Part shown: in pieces, positions 4,105-16,000 of the stretch
How the letters are laid out: every line of letters starts with the position of its first letter
Position numbering within the stretch: the stretch's first letter is position 1
From: a virus
DNA length: 20,303 bases
Virus record (IMG/VR): IMGVR_UViG_3300038451_000214
Location: 1-20,303 of that record
Direction: 5' to 3' (one strand)
Translations under genes and position numbers: made by a program
The notes under the pieces: model-generated
The model's database searches: none
What the model saw: only the letters and a program-made list of their open reading frames with translations
Told to the model about the DNA's origin: nothing

Positions 4105-4869
4105 CTAGGCGCTCGCCGCGAACCCGTGCACGTCCGCCTCCAACGCGGCCACGTCGACCGCGTCGAGCGGCCCGTGCCCGGCGGTGACGTAGCACTCGGG
4201 GATGACCACGAACGCGCTCACCGAATAGCGTGTCCACCACGGCCAGGTGAACCCGTTCTCGCCACCCCAGGTGATGTTGTCGAGGCCAGCGAACGAGCCG
4301 AGGTCGAGGTCCCCGCTCGCGACGAAGCAATGCCCGCCGACGCCCGGGTGCGCGCCGCTGACGAGGTGCCACCAGCCGGGGAACTGCGTCTCTGCGTCCT
4401 GCGGGATGTCACCCGCTAGGTAGAGCGCGCCGAAGTTGTAGAGCGCGTTCCGCAGCGCCGCCTTGGAGTGGATGTTCACCGAGCCCCAGGCGACCGCCTT
4501 CACGCCGAGCAGCCCCGCGCCCGCCGACGCCGCGGAGAGCACCTGCGTCATCTGCAAGCCCGGTCCAGGGTCGCCCTCGTACTCGGGGCCGTGCCCGACG
4601 AGCTCCCAGTAGGCCGCGGCGACCGCGTCGTCCCCCGGGTACGTGTACGGCACGCCGACGAGCGCGTAGGCGAGCTGGCAGAGGTGCACCCAGCCCGCGA
4701 TGGTGCAGTCGCCGATGGAGTCGTTGTCCGCCATCGGGAACCCGCCCGTGACCTTGGCCGCGTAGTCGAACGCTTTCGCGGGTGCCGCGGGCAGGGGCTT
4801 GGTCAGGCGCTCCTCGAACGACGGCGCGAAGCGCGTCTCGGGGAGCAGGCCGCGCAGGCCCGCGGTCAT
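4105..4869 (-). CDS. Papain-fold-like cysteine peptidase, candidate endolysin or lysis accessory, 254 aa
   Basis: ATG at 4869-4867 overlaps the TGA of the holin-like gene as ATGA. The protein has the marks of a C1/C39-like cysteine peptidase. These are DNDSIGDCTIAGWVHLC with candidate nucleophile Cys55 at a helix start, GVGGHCFVASG with candidate His180, and NITWGGENGFTWPWW (198-212). The last recalls the NSWG...WGENGY end of papain, though the Asn is shifted by one residue. The N-terminal 30 residues lack a signal peptide, so export would rely on the holin. Related proteins occur in actinobacterial phages and prophages, mostly unassigned. Its place as last gene of the lysis cassette suggests a peptide-cutting wall enzyme, but a virion or host-targeting role is open. 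Confidence 0.8.
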   Translation of the reverse strand: MTAGLRGLLPETRFAPSFEERLTKPLPAAPAKAFDYAAKVTGGFPMADNDSIGDCTIAGWVHLCQLAYALVGVPYTYPGDDAVAAAYWELVGHGPEYEGDPGPGLQMTQVLSAASAGAGLLGVKAVAWGSVNIHSKAALRNALYNFGALYLAGDIPQDAETQFPGWWHLVSGAHPGVGGHCFVASGDLDLGSFAGLDNITWGGENGFTWPWWTRYSVSAFVVIPECYVTAGHGPLDAVDVAALEADVHGFAASA

Positions 4870-5888: not shown

Positions 5889-6587
5889 TCAGCCCTCCCG
5901 CTTGCTCGCGTAGTGCTCGTTCGCGTACAGCCAGCACGTCCCGGCCGGGATGGGATGCGTCGCGGGGACGGCGACGAAATGGTCCCCCGCGAAGTAGAAC
6001 ACGGCCCAGCCGTTGCGCCGCGCGACGGTGGCGTCCTGGGAGACGATGCCTGGGGCGAAGCTGTCGCCCAGCACGACGAGCTGGCGGGCGACCAGCTGGT
6101 CCGCGGTCGGGCGTCCCGAGGGCGGCGGGACGAGGGGCGGGACCGGCACCCCGGCGCCGGGGACGACGAGCGCTTCGAGGGCCGCGAGGTTGGCCCGCGC
6201 CATCGCGACGAGCGCCGGATGGCAGTAGCCCCAGGCGGTCTTGTTCCACGTGGCGATGATCTGGTCGGCGGTCGAGGCGGACGACTGGAGCATCACGACC
6301 AGCGCGGCGTACTCGCGGGCCTGGAGGATGTCGTGGAACGCCCGGGCTCCCTCGGCGAGCGTCGGGTAGTTCCAGACGTGCTCGGGGGGATTGCCGAACG
6401 AGTTGAACGGCACCGCGCCCGGCTCGTACTCCGTCAGGTCGAGCGCGTCGTCGGTCGGGCCGCGGTCGGTCGCCTCGGACCATTCCTGGAGCACGCGGGC
6501 CTGGAGCGCCACCCGGTGCTCGACGGTCGCGGGCGACGGGACGGCGGCGAGGCAGGCCGCTACGTACTCACCACGCGTGAGGGCCAC
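5889..6587 (-). CDS. Muralytic (lysozyme/glucosaminidase-like) lysis protein, 232 aa
   Basis: GTG at 6587-6585. No ribosome binding site is visible, but TAGCAT lies 7 bases before the start, so a leaderless message is possible. Residues about 40-130 carry PFNSFGNPPEHVWNYPTLAEGARAFHDIL...AREYAALVVML and ADQIIATWNKTAWGYC. They match the pattern of lysozyme-superfamily domains in actinobacteria (N-P...YP...AEG..A....L....Y..I...L......W) that cleave the glycan strand. E42 and E79 are candidate acid residues, not proven. A Pro-rich linker (VVPGAGVPVPPLVPPPSG) leads to a C-terminal domain of about 75 residues (VVLGDSFAPGIVSQ ... NGWAVFYFAGDHFVAVP), possibly wall-binding. There is no signal peptide. 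It is the first gene of the lysis cassette. Confidence 0.78.
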   Translation of the reverse strand: MALTRGEYVAACLAAVPSPATVEHRVALQARVLQEWSEATDRGPTDDALDLTEYEPGAVPFNSFGNPPEHVWNYPTLAEGARAFHDILQAREYAALVVMLQSSASTADQIIATWNKTAWGYCHPALVAMARANLAALEALVVPGAGVPVPPLVPPPSGRPTADQLVARQLVVLGDSFAPGIVSQDATVARRNGWAVFYFAGDHFVAVPATHPIPAGTCWLYANEHYASKREG

Positions 6588-6594
6588 GCGTGAG
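6571..6594. repeat. Tandem CCACGCGTGAG direct repeat at the lysis-cassette start
   Basis: CCACGCGTGAG occurs at 6571-6581 and again at 6584-6594, with a 13-base period. Each copy contains the palindrome CACGCGTG. The pair overlaps the GTG start of the muralytic gene and abuts its -10-like TAGCAT. It could be an operator, or simply a short duplication. Confidence 0.4.
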
Positions 6595-6600
6595 ATGCTA
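6595..6600 (-). promoter_or_regulatory. -10-like TAGCAT, possible leaderless promoter for the lysis cassette
   Basis: On the minus strand TAGCAT (6600-6595) fits TANNNT and is separated by exactly 7 bases from the GTG start. Transcription would begin at or next to the start codon. No good -35 is visible. The spacing equals that of TACACT before the gene at 10023. Confidence 0.35.
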
Positions 6601-6635
6601 ACCGCGGCGGCCCAGACGACCGGGGATTTGGCGGC

Positions 6636-6664
6636 TTTACTTTGCCACGGGAGTCGGCTACCGT
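6636..6664 (+). promoter_or_regulatory. Promoter of the plus-strand accessory island
   Basis: TTTACT (6636-6641), 17 bases, then TACCGT (6659-6664). The 17 bases 6648-6664 (CGGGAGTCGGCTACCGT) are identical to the early-operon promoter on the minus strand at 3741-3725. The leader beyond is also similar (GTG-TCCTGGG, then a purine-rich binding site), with 27 bases from -10 to ATG against 29 there. It faces away from the lysis-cassette promoter. Confidence 0.6.
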
Positions 6665-6691
6665 TAGGGGTGTCCTGGGAGGGAGGAAGCG

Positions 6692-6910
6692 ATGGGAGCT
6701 CTGGTCGTGTTGGTGGTCCTCGGGACCATCGTGTGGATGATTGCCGACGCCCGACAGAAGGGCCGCTCCTGGGGGAGCGTCACCGGGTGGGTTATCGGCG
6801 CCATATGCCTGTGGATCGTCGTGTTCCCGTGCTACCTCGTCGTCCGGCGGCACTTCGACGAGGCGATCGACCATGACACCGCGCCCACCTCGAAAACCCT
6901 AGACGTCTAG
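6692..6910 (+). CDS. Small two-segment membrane protein, 72 aa, first gene of the accessory island
   Basis: ATG at 6692 follows GGGAGGGAGGAAGCG, a strong ribosome binding site, 27 bases after a promoter -10. Residues 3-18 (ALVVLVVLGTIVWMIA) and 30-52 (VTGWVIGAICLWIVVFPCYLVV) are hydrophobic. They are joined by the basic loop DARQKGRSWGS, and RRHFDEAIDHD follows. The motif LWIVxFPxYLxxR is common in small actinobacterial membrane proteins of unknown role. The last codons and stop lie inside the repeated 25-bp block (stop TAG 6908-6910 is part of the palindrome). It is co-directional with the G1 peptidase 22 bases downstream, so the two probably share one message. Role unknown; immunity, exclusion or peptidase partner are possible. 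Confidence 0.75.
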   Translation: MGALVVLVVLGTIVWMIADARQKGRSWGSVTGWVIGAICLWIVVFPCYLVVRRHFDEAIDHDTAPTSKTLDV

Positions 6911-6915
6911 GCAAT
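6891..6915. repeat. Copy 2 of the 25-bp block with palindrome CCTAGACGTCTAGG
   Basis: Palindrome at 6898-6911 inside a 25-bp block identical to 3763-3787. Here it covers the last codons and stop of the membrane-protein gene and ends 17 bases before the ATG of the G1 peptidase. That position would suit a site controlling the peptidase alone, by protein binding or as an RNA hairpin. Confidence 0.75.
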
Positions 6916-6932
6916 TCAGAGAGGAACCGACC

Positions 6933-7787
6933 ATGCGAAAGCTCACCGTAGCCGCAGCCCTCGCCCTCGCGACATTGGGCCTCGCGACCCCCGCGGGCGC
7001 GGTGACCCACGCGAGCTACCCGCGCGGTCACGCTCTGTCGTGCCACGTCGGCTACCGCGGGCTAGTCCGGCACCACTGGGTCACGGTCGGCGGTCGGCGC
7101 ATCCTGCGCGGCTACGTCGATTGCATCTGGCACCCGGTCGTCTCGTCCCTGTCGGCACCCGTCGCGACCCCCGGCCTTGCCTCGACAAACTGGTCCGGTT
7201 ACGTCCTAACGGGTGAGTACCAGGCGGTGAGCGGTGAGTGGACCGTCCCGACGCTCAACTGCGCCGTCGTCCCGGGCGGGGTCACTGTGGACTGGGTTGG
7301 CGTCAACGGTTGGGACGGCTCGGCGAACCTCTTCCAGACGGGGAGCGAGTCGGCCTGCGTGAATGGCGTGCAGGCTAATGACGCTTGGTGGACTGACGCG
7401 GCGCTCGGCTACGTCGCCCAGGACCAGCTCGCGGTAAACGCGGGCGACGTGATCTCGGCCGAGGTCCAGCAGTCGTCCTCGGGGACGTGGACGGCGACGG
7501 TCACGGACGTGACCTCGGGCCAGAGCGCCACCGCGAGCGATTCGGCGGTCTACGCCGGCTCCTCCGCCGAGTGGGTCACCGAGGACCCTACCGTGCAGGG
7601 CAGCTCGGACCTCACCCCACTCGCCGACTTCGGGATCGTGACGTTCACCAACCTCCAAGTCGTCCCGACGAGCGCGCTCACCTACGCCGACGCGATCGAG
7701 ATGCAGACATCCGGCGGCACGGTGGAGGCGATGCCGAGCCAGCCGCAGGGTGCCTCGTTCTCCGTCACCTACGAACCGACGACCTGA
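6933..7787 (+). CDS. Secreted G1 family glutamic peptidase (eqolisin), 284 aa
   Basis: ATG at 6933 with GAGAGGAA upstream. Residues 1-23 are a signal peptide (MRKLTVAAALALATLGLATPAGA), so the product is exported. A short propeptide-like part with two Cys follows. From residue 84 the G1 pattern is clear: STNWSGYVLTG, then AVSGEWTVP, VDWVGVNGWDGS, LFQTGSES, DAWWTD, AEWVTEDPT, PLADFGIVTFTN. The family's catalytic dyad, Gln and Glu, corresponds to Gln135 in LFQTG and Glu213 in AEWVTED; both are kept, so the enzyme should be active. Known members (scytalidoglutamic peptidase) work at acid pH. It is the only exported enzyme here, on the strand opposite the phage genes, and convergent with the tail gene ending at 7829. 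It is probably a cargo gene from a bacterial host. Confidence 0.92.
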   Translation: MRKLTVAAALALATLGLATPAGAVTHASYPRGHALSCHVGYRGLVRHHWVTVGGRRILRGYVDCIWHPVVSSLSAPVATPGLASTNWSGYVLTGEYQAVSGEWTVPTLNCAVVPGGVTVDWVGVNGWDGSANLFQTGSESACVNGVQANDAWWTDAALGYVAQDQLAVNAGDVISAEVQQSSSGTWTATVTDVTSGQSATASDSAVYAGSSAEWVTEDPTVQGSSDLTPLADFGIVTFTNLQVVPTSALTYADAIEMQTSGGTVEAMPSQPQGASFSVTYEPTT

Positions 7788-7828
7788 CGCACGCCCTGGT
7801 CGGGTCGGCGGGCAGGCAGACGCTGGGG

Positions 7829-8320
7829 CTAGGTTGAGCCGACGTAAAAGGCGTGGAGGTAGGTGCTACCCGACCCGGCGATAGTGGCCGGTGCGCCACC
7901 ATTCTGGTAGACATAAAACCCCAGGGTGTCGTTTGCTGCACACTTCACAAGCCCTGATGTGGTGCTCCCGATGAGGGTCCCCGAGGAGCCTTGGCGGATT
8001 TGCGACCCATTGTGGTAAGTGAGAGCGGTTAACAGGACCTCAGCGGCCGAAATGTATACGCTACAGGTTGTGGAATAAAGACCGGCGATTGGCACCACAG
8101 CGTTGTTTGACGCGACGCTGAAGCCGTAACCACTCGCCTCAGTCCCGCCAAGCGTGATCTGGGTTGACGCACCGAGCACTAAGGTCACCGCTACTGAGTT
8201 GTAATACAGTCCATACGGCGCCTCGGCCAGGAAGGTTTCGTTGTTGGCGATTGTGTTCCAATCGCTCACCGCGAGGGTGTCACCCGTAACGTGTACCGGG
8301 GGCGTCCCCCACACGGCCAC
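7829..8320 (-). CDS. Tail-tip receptor-binding-like protein, 163 aa
   Basis: GTG at 8320-8318, two bases after the stop of the intein-bearing gene. Residues 1-37 (VTGDTLAVSDWNTIANNETFLAEAPYG) match the GDxxxAxxWNxxxxNxxFL motif that starts many phage tail-fibre and baseplate proteins and docks them to the virion. Residues about 40-163 are rich in small beta strands and end with VKCAANDTLGFYVYQNGGAPATIAG...STYLHAFYVGS. This resembles a C1q/TNF-like jelly roll, used for trimeric receptor binding. The DNA is visibly less GC-rich than the hub and tape measure genes, fitting exchange of a host-range module. Receptor binding is inferred from motif and position as last tail gene. Confidence 0.72.
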   Translation of the reverse strand: MAVWGTPPVHVTGDTLAVSDWNTIANNETFLAEAPYGLYYNSVAVTLVLGASTQITLGGTEASGYGFSVASNNAVVPIAGLYSTTCSVYISAAEVLLTALTYHNGSQIRQGSSGTLIGSTTSGLVKCAANDTLGFYVYQNGGAPATIAGSGSTYLHAFYVGST

Positions 8321-8322
8321 GG

Positions 8323-10023
8323 CTACACCTTCGCCTTTCGCCCCGAGCGCGGGTTCGCTTTCCGCTCACGAGCGACGTGGGTCGCGACCGACTCACCAGG
8401 CTTGCCTCCGGTCGGCCCTGGCGCGAACCCCCGCCCCATCGCCTCATCGTCCTGCCACCGAATGTCCTCGGCCGTCTCGCCGGGGAACCAGTGCCGCACG
8501 TCGAACGGCCGACTGGCGACCCAGTTCTCCACCTCCGTGTGATTCGCCGGCCAGACCACCTCGACCCACTGACCTCCGACCGCGGCGTTGGCGCAGTCGC
8601 AGCAGAAGAACCGACGGTCGGTGAAGCTCGCCATCTGCGCGGAGTTGCAGCCAGGGAAGGGACAGTTCCCGGTATGGATATAACCGTCGAGAACAAAGCT
8701 CTCTGTTCCAGGGACCGTCGCGCAATACACCGGCTCATATCGGTCAGTCGCCTCGACGCTTTCAACCTCGTAGTCAATCACCTCAGCATTCTGAACCGAT
8801 GCCCAGTGGTCATAGCGGCGGCGATGTTCGGCAATCAAAAAGAACTCTGGGGTTAGCCGAGAACGAACGAAACCAATGCTATGAATCTCAGACCACACAC
8901 CTTTGATGCCTTTGCGTGTCCGCGAGATGATCGGGTATGTACCGAGTCCGAGACGCAACGCCAGACGTTCGACGAATTGCAGGTGTTCAAGTCGAGCAGA
9001 ATATAGAACCGCTTGGCCTTTCTTGGTCACATGACCGTCAGCCGCGAAGTAGCCAGCCAACCAGCCATAGAGATAGGACGGCGACTCATCGAGCGACGGG
9101 AGCACCTTAAAGTACGCAGGAAGATCAACGACGCGTAGGGCGTCTCGCCCTGAGATTTCGTAAGTATGAGACTCTGAGAAATATTTGAGCAACGCGGCGT
9201 CTTTCTCCGCATAAAGGGTGACCTGGCTACCCAGCGCGTACCGCGCCCCATCGCCGAACGTGAACCCCCGAGCAATACCGAACTGCGATGGGCGTAGTCC
9301 TTTCCCACGGGATAACGAACACGGCATCAATGAAGCCAGGCGTTGTCCTGCGACAAGGTCTTTGGTGAGCACCGAGTGCATGTCACGTCGCAACGGATCG
9401 GCCCTGGAACGGACCAACCAACGATGCTCCGCTGTCGTGTAGATGGTCCTGTGTCGCTTGCTCCTGACGAGGTTGAGCGCGTATAGCTGTTGCACCCCGC
9501 GCTCAGTGATTGGCGCTGGAACCCATACGCCACCATTCTGAGCTGTCGTGAGCACAGTCTGGATCGTTCCAGCCGTCTCGGCAAACGTCTTCGGGCCATC
9601 GGGGGTGAGGAACTTTTCCTCGCCAGCAAAACAGGAGACGACCCAGCGCCCCGCGTTCACGTAGGCCATCGCCTTGACGGTGGGGTGCACCGAGCGGTCG
9701 GCGATGACCTCCAGCTTGCGCTCAGGCGACAGTGGCACCTGGCCGCGGTGTTCGGCCGCCGAGCGCCAGACGATGCGCTGGGGGGGCGTCCAGGCGGGGT
9801 CCTCGGGCTGCTGCGCCGGGTCGGCGACGACGGCGCGGACGTGGGCGACGAGGGAGTCCACCAGCTTGTCGTGGATGTGGTCGGCCGGGTTCTCGTGCTT
9901 GTGGCGGCGGATTTGGTCGGCGACGTTGCCCGCCATCTGGAGCCGGTCGATGCCGGGACGCGGCAAATACGCGGCGTGAACCTCTGCGTGGTCAAGAACG
10001 GGGGCGATTCCGGGCACGCGCAT
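8323..10023 (-). CDS. Zinc-ribbon tail-region protein interrupted by an intein, 566 aa precursor
   Basis: ATG at 10023-10021 without a ribosome binding site; TACACT lies 7 bases upstream. Residues 1-130 and 454-566 are the mature protein (243 aa after splicing). The N-part ends AMAYVNAGRWVVS and the C-part begins CPFPGCNSAQMASF...FFCCDCANAA. Rejoining gives an unbroken GRWVVSCPFPGC...CCDC zinc ribbon followed by FDVRHWFPGETAEDIR. Actinophage tail-region proteins with a GRWV-C zinc ribbon and a later R(N/H)W-PGET segment are known by eye as a common unassigned family. Residues 131-453 are an intein. The mature protein probably works in tail tip assembly or host interaction; its exact role is unknown. 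Confidence 0.88.
   Translation of the reverse strand: MRVPGIAPVLDHAEVHAAYLPRPGIDRLQMAGNVADQIRRHKHENPADHIHDKLVDSLVAHVRAVVADPAQQPEDPAWTPPQRIVWRSAAEHRGQVPLSPERKLEVIADRSVHPTVKAMAYVNAGRWVVSCFAGEEKFLTPDGPKTFAETAGTIQTVLTTAQNGGVWVPAPITERGVQQLYALNLVRSKRHRTIYTTAEHRWLVRSRADPLRRDMHSVLTKDLVAGQRLASLMPCSLSRGKGLRPSQFGIARGFTFGDGARYALGSQVTLYAEKDAALLKYFSESHTYEISGRDALRVVDLPAYFKVLPSLDESPSYLYGWLAGYFAADGHVTKKGQAVLYSARLEHLQFVERLALRLGLGTYPIISRTRKGIKGVWSEIHSIGFVRSRLTPEFFLIAEHRRRYDHWASVQNAEVIDYEVESVEATDRYEPVYCATVPGTESFVLDGYIHTGNCPFPGCNSAQMASFTDRRFFCCDCANAAVGGQWVEVVWPANHTEVENWVASRPFDVRHWFPGETAEDIRWQDDEAMGRGFAPGPTGGKPGESVATHVARERKANPRSGRKAKV
8665..9633 (-). mobile_element. Mini-to-full intein with LAGLIDADG homing endonuclease, 323 aa
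   Basis: It starts at Cys131 (TGT, 9633-9631) and ends at Asn453 (AAC, 8667-8665), with Cys454 as the +1 residue. Block A is CFAGEEKFLTPDG. Block B is RTIYTTAEHRWLV with TxxH. A LAGLIDADG-like motif occurs at WLAGYFAADGHV (321-332), and SARLEHLQFVERLALRLGL follows. Blocks F/G are PVYCATVPGTESFVLDGYIHTGN with penultimate His-Thr-Gly-Asn, then Cys. Only one LAGLIDADG motif is plain to me; a second, degenerate one may lie in the following 60 residues. The nested DNA is clearly lower in GC than the flanks, a sign of separate origin. Insertion falls exactly on the first Cys of a zinc ribbon. Confidence 0.92.
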
Positions 10024-13030: not shown

Positions 13031-16000
13031 CTACGGGTTGCCGGTCCCGCGGCCGACCGAGCGCGAGTTGAGGACGTTCTGGCCGGTGGCACGCGCCCCG
13101 CGCAGCATGTACTTCTGGACCGCCGTCGCCAGCGTGCGGCCATCGAGAACGACGGTCGTGTGGAGGTCGCCCGAGACGTTGACCGTGTGGCCCGCGTCGA
13201 CCGAGGACTTCACGGACTTGACGGCGGTGGTCGCGGTGTTGACCGCGGTGGTGACCTTGGCGATGTCGACAGGCTTGGCGAGCTTCAGGGTCGCAGCAGT
13301 CACCGCCGCGATGTCGGGCGTCTTGGCGAGTTTCGACCCGAGCGAGTTCACGGCGATGGTCGTTTTGTCCGTCGAGGTCTTGATCCCGAGGACCTTCTGC
13401 TGGGCCTCCTTCAGCGACTCGCCCATCTTCATCAGCCCGACGACCTGATCCTTCTGGGCCTTCGTGAGCTCGATGTCCGACCGCCCGGTGTCGTAACTGC
13501 CGAGTGCCGCGTTCGCTGCGATCTGTTTCTCACTCGGCACCGTCTTGGGCAGCGCGCCGATTGCGTCGAGGAAACCGCCCGCGAGGTCGGCCCCGATCTT
13601 GGGTATCGCGCCGACGAACGGGATCGAAGAGACGTCCTTCATCCACGACGGCATCGCGGCCTCGCCCGCCGCGGCCCCCGGTATGAGCTTCGTCCCCAGT
13701 GAGGCGATCTGCGCGGTGATGACGGGCAGAATCAGGCTGGCCGCGCTAAAGCCTCCAGCCTCTCCCGCGCCCGCGGCTCCCGCACCAGCCGCGGCGCCGC
13801 CGCCCAGCGCGAGACCGGCCCCCGCGCCCGCGGCTCCCGCCGCTTCGGCGGCGTCCTCTCCGCCTGCACCCAGGTCCTCGCCTGCCGTGGCACCGCCAGC
13901 CGCGACGTCTTCGGCGGCGCCTGCGCCACCTGCCACCAGGTCCTCCGACGCCGTCTCGCCACCCGCGGCCAAGTCCTCTGCCGCTCCGGCACCACCAGCC
14001 CCCAGGTCTTCCGCGGCAGCCGCGCCACCCGCGCCGACATCCTCTCCGGCCACCTCGCCACCCGCGCCCAGGTCTTCCGCGGCCGAGGCGCCCCCAGCGC
14101 CCAAATCCTCCGCGGCCGAGGCGCCCCCAGCGCCTACGTCTTCAGCAGCAGCAGCACCGCCAGCGCCCAAATCCTCCGCAGCAGCCGCGCCGCCCGCACC
14201 GACATCCTCGGCAGCAGCAGCACCACCCGCGCCCAGGTCTTCAGCAGCCGTGGCACCGCCAGCGCCCAGGTCTTCCGCGGCAGTCGCACCCCCGGCGCCC
14301 AGGTCTTCAGCAGCCGTGGCACCGCCAGTTCCCAGGTCCTCGGCGGCTGTCGAGCCACCCGCAGTGAGGGACGCGGCCGCGGTCTTCGCGTCGGCGATCA
14401 GTTGCTCACCGGCCTTGGCGATTCCCTGCTGCAGCGTCTCGGACGCCTGGGAGGCGTCGGTGTTCAGGGCCGAAGTCTCGTCAGGGCCGCCCTTCAGTCC
14501 GAACAGCTTGAGGACCGCCTGGTACGCCGATTGCGCGTTGGCGACGAGCTTGCCGAGGGCGTTCACGGCGAACGCGGTCACCGCGACCCCGAGCACGCCC
14601 ACCACCACCGCGGCGAGCGTGTAGGCCGCGATGCGGTTCTTGTTGAACCACTCGACGACCGAGGCGGTGACGTGGATGACCGTCTCAATCTTGGGGATGA
14701 GCACCCGCCCGAGCCGGACCCCGTAGTCGTCGACCGCGGCCTCCAGCATGTGCAGCTGGCCGTGCAGGGTCTTCATCTGGAGGTTGGCCGCGTTCTCCGC
14801 CGTGCCGTGCTTGGTCACCGCCGCGGTGGCCTTGTCGAACGCCTCCGGGCCGGCACGGACCAGGGCGAGGACCTTGGCGGACGCGGAGCCGAAGCCCAGC
14901 GCGGTGAGTTCGGCCGTCGCCTGGGCGGTGGTCATGCCCTTGGTCTTCTCCGCCAGCTGGGAGATGACCGAAGCCCAGCCGACGAACTGGCCCTTGGCGT
15001 CCGTCACCGTCAGGCCAAGCTTGGCCGAGGCCAGCTGGGCGGTCTTGGCCCCGTCGGCCGCGGAGGTGAACGCCTTCCAGGCCACCGCTTGGCTCGACGA
15101 CATCCCTTGGGTCGCCGTCGTGAGTTCCTTCGCGGTGACCGTCCCGGCGACGTACTGCGCGGCCAGTCCCTGGAGCGACGGTGGCAGGGTGTCGCTCGCC
15201 ACCCGCAACGCGATCTGCGCCTTGGCGGCGTCGGCCGCGGGCTTCAAGAGCGCGGTCATGGTCGTGGTGAGCATCGACATCGCGGCTCGCCCGGTCTCGC
15301 CGTGCTCGGTCATGTCCACCAAGAGGCCGGAGAGCTGCCCGAGGGAGGGCGAGAGCGCGCCGAGCTTGGTCCGTGTCCGCTCCAGGCCGGAGGTCAGCGA
15401 GTCGACGCCCTGGCCGGTCATCTGCGAGGCCGAGTAGAGGACGTCGGCGGTCGAGGCGGCGTCCTTGGCGTGCAGCTGGAACGCCTGCATCACCCCCGCG
15501 AGGGCGCCGGTCGTGTCCGAGAGTGACCCCAGCCCGGCGTCAGCGAGCGACGTGGCCGCCTTCATCTCCTCCAGGGCCTCGGCGGTCGTGTAGGCGCCGG
15601 ATTGCAGCGACTTGAACTGGGCGGCGACCGGGGCCAGCGCCGCCTCCATCGCGTTGGCCGACTGCTCGGTCGACCCCGCGGTGCCGAGGAGCGCGTTGGC
15701 GAGGTCGTTCGACTGCTTGGTGGACTGGCCCAAGGCAGCCTGGACCTTGGCCTGACTGGTCTGGAAGTCCATCGCCATCTTGACGGACATGACGCCGACC
15801 GCGGCCCCGATGCCGAGGAAGGCGAGCGTGACGAGCTTGCCCGCCTTGATCAGCCGCTCGTCCTGGAGGACCCCCGTGTCGGCGGACGCCACCTCGGCCT
15901 CGGCGAGACGCCCTTGCGCGTCGGCGTTGGCGAGGGTCGCGTCGCGCATCTCCTTCTCGGCGACGGCCTGCCGGTCGAGGGCACCCGACTGCGCGGTGGA

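Follow-up and report, generated by a model that had tools for sequence, protein, structure and literature searches.

IMG/VR virus record IMGVR_UViG_3300038451_000214 was analyzed over its full 20,303 bases (positions 1-20,303, hereafter the window), in which a short island carries two genes that run against all of their neighbours. A home-made greedy GC-frame caller gave 22 open reading frames (ORFs), and only two of them lie on the plus strand: a membrane ORF of 72 amino acids (aa) (6692..6910, +) and, after a gap of 22 bp, a 284-aa ORF (6933..7787, +) with a signal-like start and a match to the Pfam family PF01828, the G1 glutamic peptidases. The opposite orientation, which an initial annotation made from the sequence alone had pointed out, was thus borne out. 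Guanine-cytosine (GC) content by codon position was 0.61/0.44/0.88 for the membrane ORF, the upstream member of the two-gene unit, and 0.63/0.56/0.89 for the G1 ORF; purine-rich ribosome-binding sites were recognized by eye in front of the two at 6678..6689 (+) and 6919..6925 (+), respectively.

The island lies within the contig with phage genes on either side, and its GC content (69.2%) is close to that of the window (68.9%). According to the ORF coordinates, a divergent intergenic gap of 104 bp (6588..6691, no strand assigned) precedes it, the expected place of any island promoter. A promoter of its own had been claimed for the island, but a sigma-70-type consensus scan of 6450-8000, which covers that promoter type only, gave 0 sites, so that the divergent gap is the sole feature to suggest one. 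No terminator was found by a consensus scan of the island.

The G1 protein and its active site

The product of 6933-7787 matched PF01828 (Peptidase_A4, equal to MEROPS G1) with 98.1 bits (E 6.4e-28, cut-off 22.3) over residues 85-280, corresponding to profile positions 1-206 of 206. A phmmer search of the PDB returned at E <=0.01 only aspergillopepsin II (1y43, E 6.7e-11) and scytalidopepsin B (1s2b, E 0.0022). An AlphaFold2 model based on a 13-row alignment had a mean pLDDT (predicted local distance difference test) of 71, with poor values for residues 1-80 and a mostly confident core. Foldseek placed scytalidoglutamic peptidase (SGP) at the top (E 5.1e-14), and VIA-align of the core gave SGP 2ifw a Z-score of 24.9 (188 residues aligned, root-mean-square deviation 2.3, 24% identity), followed by aspergilloglutamic peptidase (AGP) at 18.9 and the first non-family protein at 13.9. 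The modelled core has the beta-sandwich fold of SGP and AGP. Profile and model together firmly assign the predicted product as a G1 glutamic peptidase homologue (eqolisin), as the initial annotation had proposed.

The active site was compared across 69 matching ORFs, reduced to 60 (59 and the window protein) once duplicates and copies contained in others had been removed. Loci belonging to the window's phage and the stretches of phages phiAsp2 and TurkishDelight had been excluded beforehand; the set was drawn from the best-listed database places and leans toward high-scoring members. SGP residue numbers were counted manually on the phmmer/PDB alignment. The catalytic Gln135 (7335..7337, +; SGP Q53) is Gln in all 59 other proteins, and Glu217 (7581..7583, +), which aligns with SGP E136, is Glu in 59/59. 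Of the two residues that had been named as an intact dyad, Gln135 therefore stands, while Glu213 is conserved (Glu in 56/59 and Asp in 3/59) and does not align with SGP E136; the catalytic Glu is predicted to be Glu217. SGP (2ifw/1s2b) and AGP (1y43), both of MEROPS G1, share this fold and the Gln/Glu dyad with the window protein, but they are non-phage enzymes, and N125 and T154 set it apart at the SGP D43 and E69 positions.

Three substitutions in the cleft had been overlooked. Thr154 (7392..7394, +) stands at the position of SGP E69, which is Glu in 57/59 of the others (exceptions L080 and L022); Asn125 (7305..7307, +) stands at D43, where the others have Asp (51), Gly (7) or Gln (1 of 59); and Ala157 stands at P72, which is Pro in 54/59. 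A passage of PMC6154417 describes E69 as strictly conserved and as a support for the Trp by which the catalytic Gln is positioned; with Thr154 the window protein lacks this residue, which does not define the family, as 2/59 are also without it. In the same paper, SGP D43A is said to retain ~20% of activity and Gly at D43 is judged acceptable. The dyad and the remaining invariant cleft residues are retained.

The protein is divided sharply by charge. A putative signal peptide (residues 1-23, 6933..7001, +; cleavage after AGA, by eye) is followed by a basic pro-segment (residues 24-82, 7002..7178, +) with 6 Arg, 6 His and 1 Asp (isoelectric point (pI) 10.3), and then by the predicted mature G1 domain (residues 83-284, 7179..7784, +) with 12 Asp, 9 Glu and no Lys, Arg or His (pI 4.05). 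The processing site between pro-segment and core was placed where the PF01828 match begins. Over aligned residues 83-240, 6/59 relatives are likewise without basic residues, the median of the relatives being 7. The absence of basic residues across the 202-residue core suggests continued selection. Long basic-free stretches also occur in some virion proteins of the window phage, namely the tape measure (231 residues, read from a partly repetitive gene), the LamG protein (180) and a 499-aa protein (106), which would fit an acid habitat.

A basic pro-segment in front of a basic-free acidic core resembles the layout of acid-activated zymogens. According to a section of PMC3009609, fungal AGP and SGP are made as precursors that self-process in acid, and the bacterial enzyme pepG1 (Alicyclobacillus sp. 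DSM 15716) works at pH 2-5. pepG1 is a cellular G1 enzyme of the bacterial type with the dyad and measured activity, whereas activity of the window protein is a prediction; an A. fastidiosus relative aligned with the window protein at 27% identity. For the window protein we infer enzymatic activity, acid activation and action outside the cell, with catalysis likely but not assured because N125, T154 and A157 depart from the family.

The phage genome, its relatives and a second phage

Two longer IMG/VR records overlap the window: IMGVR_UViG_3300038450_000073 (G001, 53,866 bases) and IMGVR_UViG_3300038425_000070 (G002, 38,115 bases). Positions 1973-22275 of G001 are 100% identical to the window over its entire 20,303 bases. 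G002 matches 7.7 kb at the far end of the window with 99.99% identity and the right half of G001 with 99.99-100%. It also spans the gap between the two ends of G001 via a repetitive stretch of ~2 kb, in which identity to the first 431 bases of G001 is just 94%. Together the two records look as if they cover an apparent ring of ~56 kb, whose closure we infer. The ~2 kb of repetitive, coding-like sequence at which the ends of G001 seem to join (L029:11955-13862) may have broken the assembly of G001.

Profile matches in the window revealed tape measure, tail completion and minor tail genes, and G001 also encodes a terminase and a portal. Further phage genes encode a Mu F-like protein, an XkdF-type protease and the portal with a NUDIX domain; this portal protein (L008:12861-15998) exceeds 1,000 aa, with the NUDIX hydrolase domain at residues 623-739. 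The best relatives of the terminase are those of Streptomyces phage TurkishDelight (47%) and Actinoplanes phage phiAsp2 (42%), and Salinibacter phage records form the largest single group of terminase matches (184/386). We suppose the host to be an actinobacterium. Synteny with the two named phages was rejected: among 47 phage proteins compared with stretches of 40 and 45 kb of phiAsp2 and TurkishDelight, phiAsp2 was matched only by two proteins of the glycosyltransferase region, its terminase lying outside its stretch, and TurkishDelight only by the terminase. Genes for a glycosyltransferase and a nucleotide-sugar epimerase (L009:8737-12598) occupy the interval from the head-side genes to the contig end.

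Profiles for integrases and ParA (PF00589, PF00239, PF07508 and PF13614) gave no match in G001 or G002, while each of them matched in control genomes, and no tRNA genes were found in the five pieces scanned. A temperate lifestyle of the window phage is not supported by this predicted gene content.

In 50,697 phage records, tblastn with three different G1 queries gave no G1 relative, and IMG/VR scans with the window protein or with alignments led by it (A1 and A2) returned the same phage or nothing, no A2 hit being confirmed; the phage and viral-contig collections may omit records that are very close to the window's genome. Two further places, L096 and L095, came from a scan with an alignment (A5) built from typical G1 proteins of actinobacteria. 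The latter, a contig of 4,090 bp, carries the N-terminal half of a G1 gene (L095:3-797) that runs in frame into unrelated sequence; it is a probable assembly chimera and was set aside. L096 belongs to IMGVR_UViG_3300037114_000021 (42,294 bases), a second phage with terminase, portal, major head, tape measure, exonuclease, Erf and replication-initiation genes. Its G1 gene (L096:7911-8612) is complete, encodes 233 aa and matches PF01828 with 88 bits; its start and the stop of the gene before it share 4 bases, coupling it into a recombination/replication (early-type) operon. The three profiles tried in this phage (PF00589, PF07508 and PF13614) gave no match.

The second protein shares with the window protein the phage location, a signal-like start, the dyad and the lack of Glu at the E69 position, where it has Val (Ala in another register). 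E69 is thus absent in 2/2 intact phage G1 proteins against 2/59 others (Fisher p 0.003, tested post hoc and with relatedness ignored). It differs in being without a long pro-segment and without an adjacent membrane ORF, and in its early-type operon.

Cellular relatives were found in actinobacteria. PF01828 matched in 21/197 genomes of the order of Actinospica, with up to 7 matches per genome, and the window protein matched 11/396 genomes of the phylum of genome G003 at E up to 1e-5. In trees it grouped, on long branches, with L080 (from G003) and L073 (from G518), with support of 96/92 and 97/95, and it is 36-38% identical to L073. The actinobacterial G1 genes L073, L080 and L011 are similar to the window gene but differ from it by their cellular gene neighbours, such as aconitase and a purine-type permease at L073 and Clp protease and ABC genes at L080. 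The two phage G1 proteins stood apart in the tree, the second with weakly supported placement, and an approximately unbiased test did not reject a single clade of both (p 0.22), so the trees fall short of demonstrating a separate uptake of the two genes. In plasmids, G1 matches were seen in 6/72,556 records, all with <60% identity and none covering 80% of the query.

The enzyme family, a rare class of acid-loving proteases known from fungi and some microbes, is not new, but no phage member of it was found in print: the literature search met no title or abstract opening that reports a phage G1 peptidase, with subscription journals largely outside its scope. Phages do carry a glutamic-type peptidase of another family, MEROPS G2, in the self-cleaving domain of phi29-type pre-neck appendages; this is a self-cleaving structural protein with a fold other than G1. 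The nearest viral precedent that we met is Pro2-Glu of strawberry mottle virus. Sections of PMC6357015 describe it as a virus-encoded glutamic protease, modelled with some similarity to the eqolisin fold but differing from eqolisins in sequence, spacing of catalytic residues and sheet arrangement, and these sections of the 2019 review name no other viral protease of its fold as then known. Unlike the phage G1 proteins, Pro2-Glu processes the polyprotein of a plant RNA virus. A conference report (PMC6356965) does no more than cite the strawberry mottle virus work. Among the best 50 rows listed in a fold search of BFVD, no query TM-score (template modelling score) exceeded 0.34. The list is headed (row 1) by a coat protein of grapevine leafroll virus, and the polyprotein of strawberry mottle virus stands in row 42 (E 4.6e-3, query TM 0.33); these two may be distant fold relatives, because a putative glutamic-protease-like domain has been reported in some related coat proteins (PMC6357015, in the same sections).

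Possible role of the peptidase

The evidence tilts modestly towards an exported and probably acid-activated G1 endopeptidase, encoded by an accessory (moron-like) phage gene and acting outside the infected cell. The island would be an accessory two-gene unit of a tailed phage in which no integrase was detected, with a G1 glutamic endopeptidase made as a zymogen as its main product. The signal peptide would lead to export from the infected cell, and the basic pro-segment may keep the strongly acidic core inactive around neutral pH. In acid surroundings the pro-segment would be released, and the Gln135/Glu217 dyad would then cut exposed proteins. The likeliest targets would be surface or extracellular proteins, both of the infected cell and of cells nearby, and their removal might hinder superinfection or clear decoys for the progeny. 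This choice of target is tentative, and we favour it over a benefit to the host in dormancy, a part in release, or a loss of activity. The two different gene placements speak against the protein being part of the virion; for the second phage they speak against a pure lysis role, too.

Several observations count against this interpretation. The three cleft positions N125, T154 and A157 deviate from the family, and the promoter scan recognized none for the island. In the second phage G1 protein, only ~7 residues (by eye) lie between the signal-like start and the core, and the core has 6 basic residues, so that the zymogen and charge features are not shared with the window protein. The second gene is in an early-type operon, whereas that of the window faces late genes, which makes a single common role uncertain. 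It is accordingly with more reserve that we suggest a general pattern, in which phages, probably of acid habitats, acquired eqolisins on more than one occasion and remodelled the cleft, with loss of E69, giving a phage class of secreted acid proteases that would strip surface proteins during infection, in phages without an integrase.

Lysogenic conversion, which the initial annotation had suggested, would mean that a moron from a dormant phage gives its host an acid protease for feeding on protein. The layout at the window is what one would look for, as a short unit of its own on the opposite strand between late genes is the classic moron arrangement, and cellular G1 genes are present in actinobacteria of the Actinospica order. 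The idea is weakened by the lack of any integrase or ParA profile match across G001 and G002, which cover the apparent ring, and the second phage, equally without a match to the profiles tried, carries its G1 gene in a replication-type operon. We regard it as unlikely.

To the same degree doubtful is a G1 homologue of weak or no catalytic activity, which would serve as a binding protein or be in the course of being lost. T154 and N125 at positions where SGP has the strictly conserved E69 and an Asp whose replacement lowers activity would be in line with it, as would the lack of Glu at E69 in the second phage. The retention of the dyad and of the other invariant cleft residues argues for an enzyme, as do the judgement of PMC6154417 that Gly is acceptable at D43 and the open reading frame with its strong codon bias; the basic-free core points to ongoing selection.

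Rather less likely is a release helper, a protease that would loosen surface protein layers late in infection. The G1 gene sits between the tail-side genes and a group formed by a 232-aa protein, a short membrane-type ORF and a hydrophobic 225-aa ORF, which we take to resemble a lysis cassette. The 232-aa and 225-aa proteins are without a Pfam match, and transcription of the G1 gene runs away from theirs; its counterpart in the second phage lies beside ERF and replication genes.

That membrane protein and protease act together to exclude superinfecting phages appears improbable. Hydropathy peaks in the windows starting at residues 1 and 33 support the two membrane segments that the initial annotation described in the upstream protein; it has a basic loop and an acidic tail, and a weak match to phrog_8436 (E 4.2e-4), a PHROG without assigned function. 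The location of the two ORFs on one strand, 22 bp apart, is compatible with a functional pair. The 72-aa ORF was unmatched in the 50,697 phage records, matched the same phage only in a viral-contig scan that reaches close relatives only, and had no sequence match at the G1 locus of the second phage (tblastn, E up to 10), where the only hits in that phage (E 2.7 and 4.3) lie outside L096's G1 locus. The two genes were thus not seen together in other phages, in other viral contigs or at the second G1 locus. As no relative of the 72-aa ORF was found, the partnership that had been proposed is unsupported, and the two genes would be a local arrangement rather than an established system. The second phage does have an ORF for a 136-aa protein with two hydrophobic segments (L096:6016-6426, +), on the same strand as its G1 gene and ~1.5 kb and three ORFs upstream of it; it neither adjoins G1 nor matches the window's membrane ORF in sequence, and it leaves room for a looser link between membrane proteins and G1.

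Finally, bacterial DNA joined onto a phage contig by the assembly is very hard to credit: although the short contig L095 looks chimeric and the window record and G001, perhaps from sibling samples, are not fully independent, the whole window recurs in G001, phage genes flank an island of matching GC content, and a second phage has a G1 gene of its own.

If active, the exported peptidase would be a zymogen carried by phages without a detected integrase, which raises the question of why a phage would digest proteins outside a cell that is about to be killed. What G1 peptidases of bacteria and archaea do in vivo was called unknown in a 2010 paper (PMC3009609), and the phage gene would offer a small system in which to study the role of the bacterial enzymes.

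Neighbouring genes and other features of the window

The island is bordered on one side by a 163-aa protein without assigned function (7829..8320, -), the last of the tail-side genes, which had no match in phage records. On the other side lies the 232-aa protein (5889..6587, -), which has a weak match to the minor-tail family phrog_30740 (E 4.1e-4) and no match in Pfam or in phage records; it has some likeness to cell-wall hydrolases and may be one. A search for an empty site was made with flanking genes: scans with the 232-aa protein and with the LamG tail protein returned the same phage only, and a tape-measure scan gave ten loci, three of them from the same phage. In the tape-measure relatives L087 (91%) and L086 (69%) the site of the island is not covered, as these contigs stop inside the tape-measure gene. 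PF01828 had no match in L085, L086, L087 and L090, which carries little weight as all are fragments and the control gave no match either.

Within the tape-measure gene, 13907-14363 (-) is tandemly repetitive, the repeat periods being 33 and 66 bases. It may be due to these repeats that contigs of this phage and of related ones break off within the gene.

A probable intein, carrying a LAGLIDADG endonuclease domain (PF14528, E 1.8e-8), splits a late gene at 8323-10023 (-); the match to PF14890 is weak and under its cut-off. By eye, the intein extends from CFAGEEKF to YIHTGN, followed by Cys, and the downstream flank is zinc-finger-like. A 254-aa protein (4105-4869, -) matches phrog_19005, a family without assigned function, and has by eye a Cys/His/Asn pattern that we take to resemble that of a papain-type peptidase. 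A 256-aa protein (2082-2852, -) has an Imm-5-like domain (PF21805, 37.6 bits) together with short GC-rich repeats.

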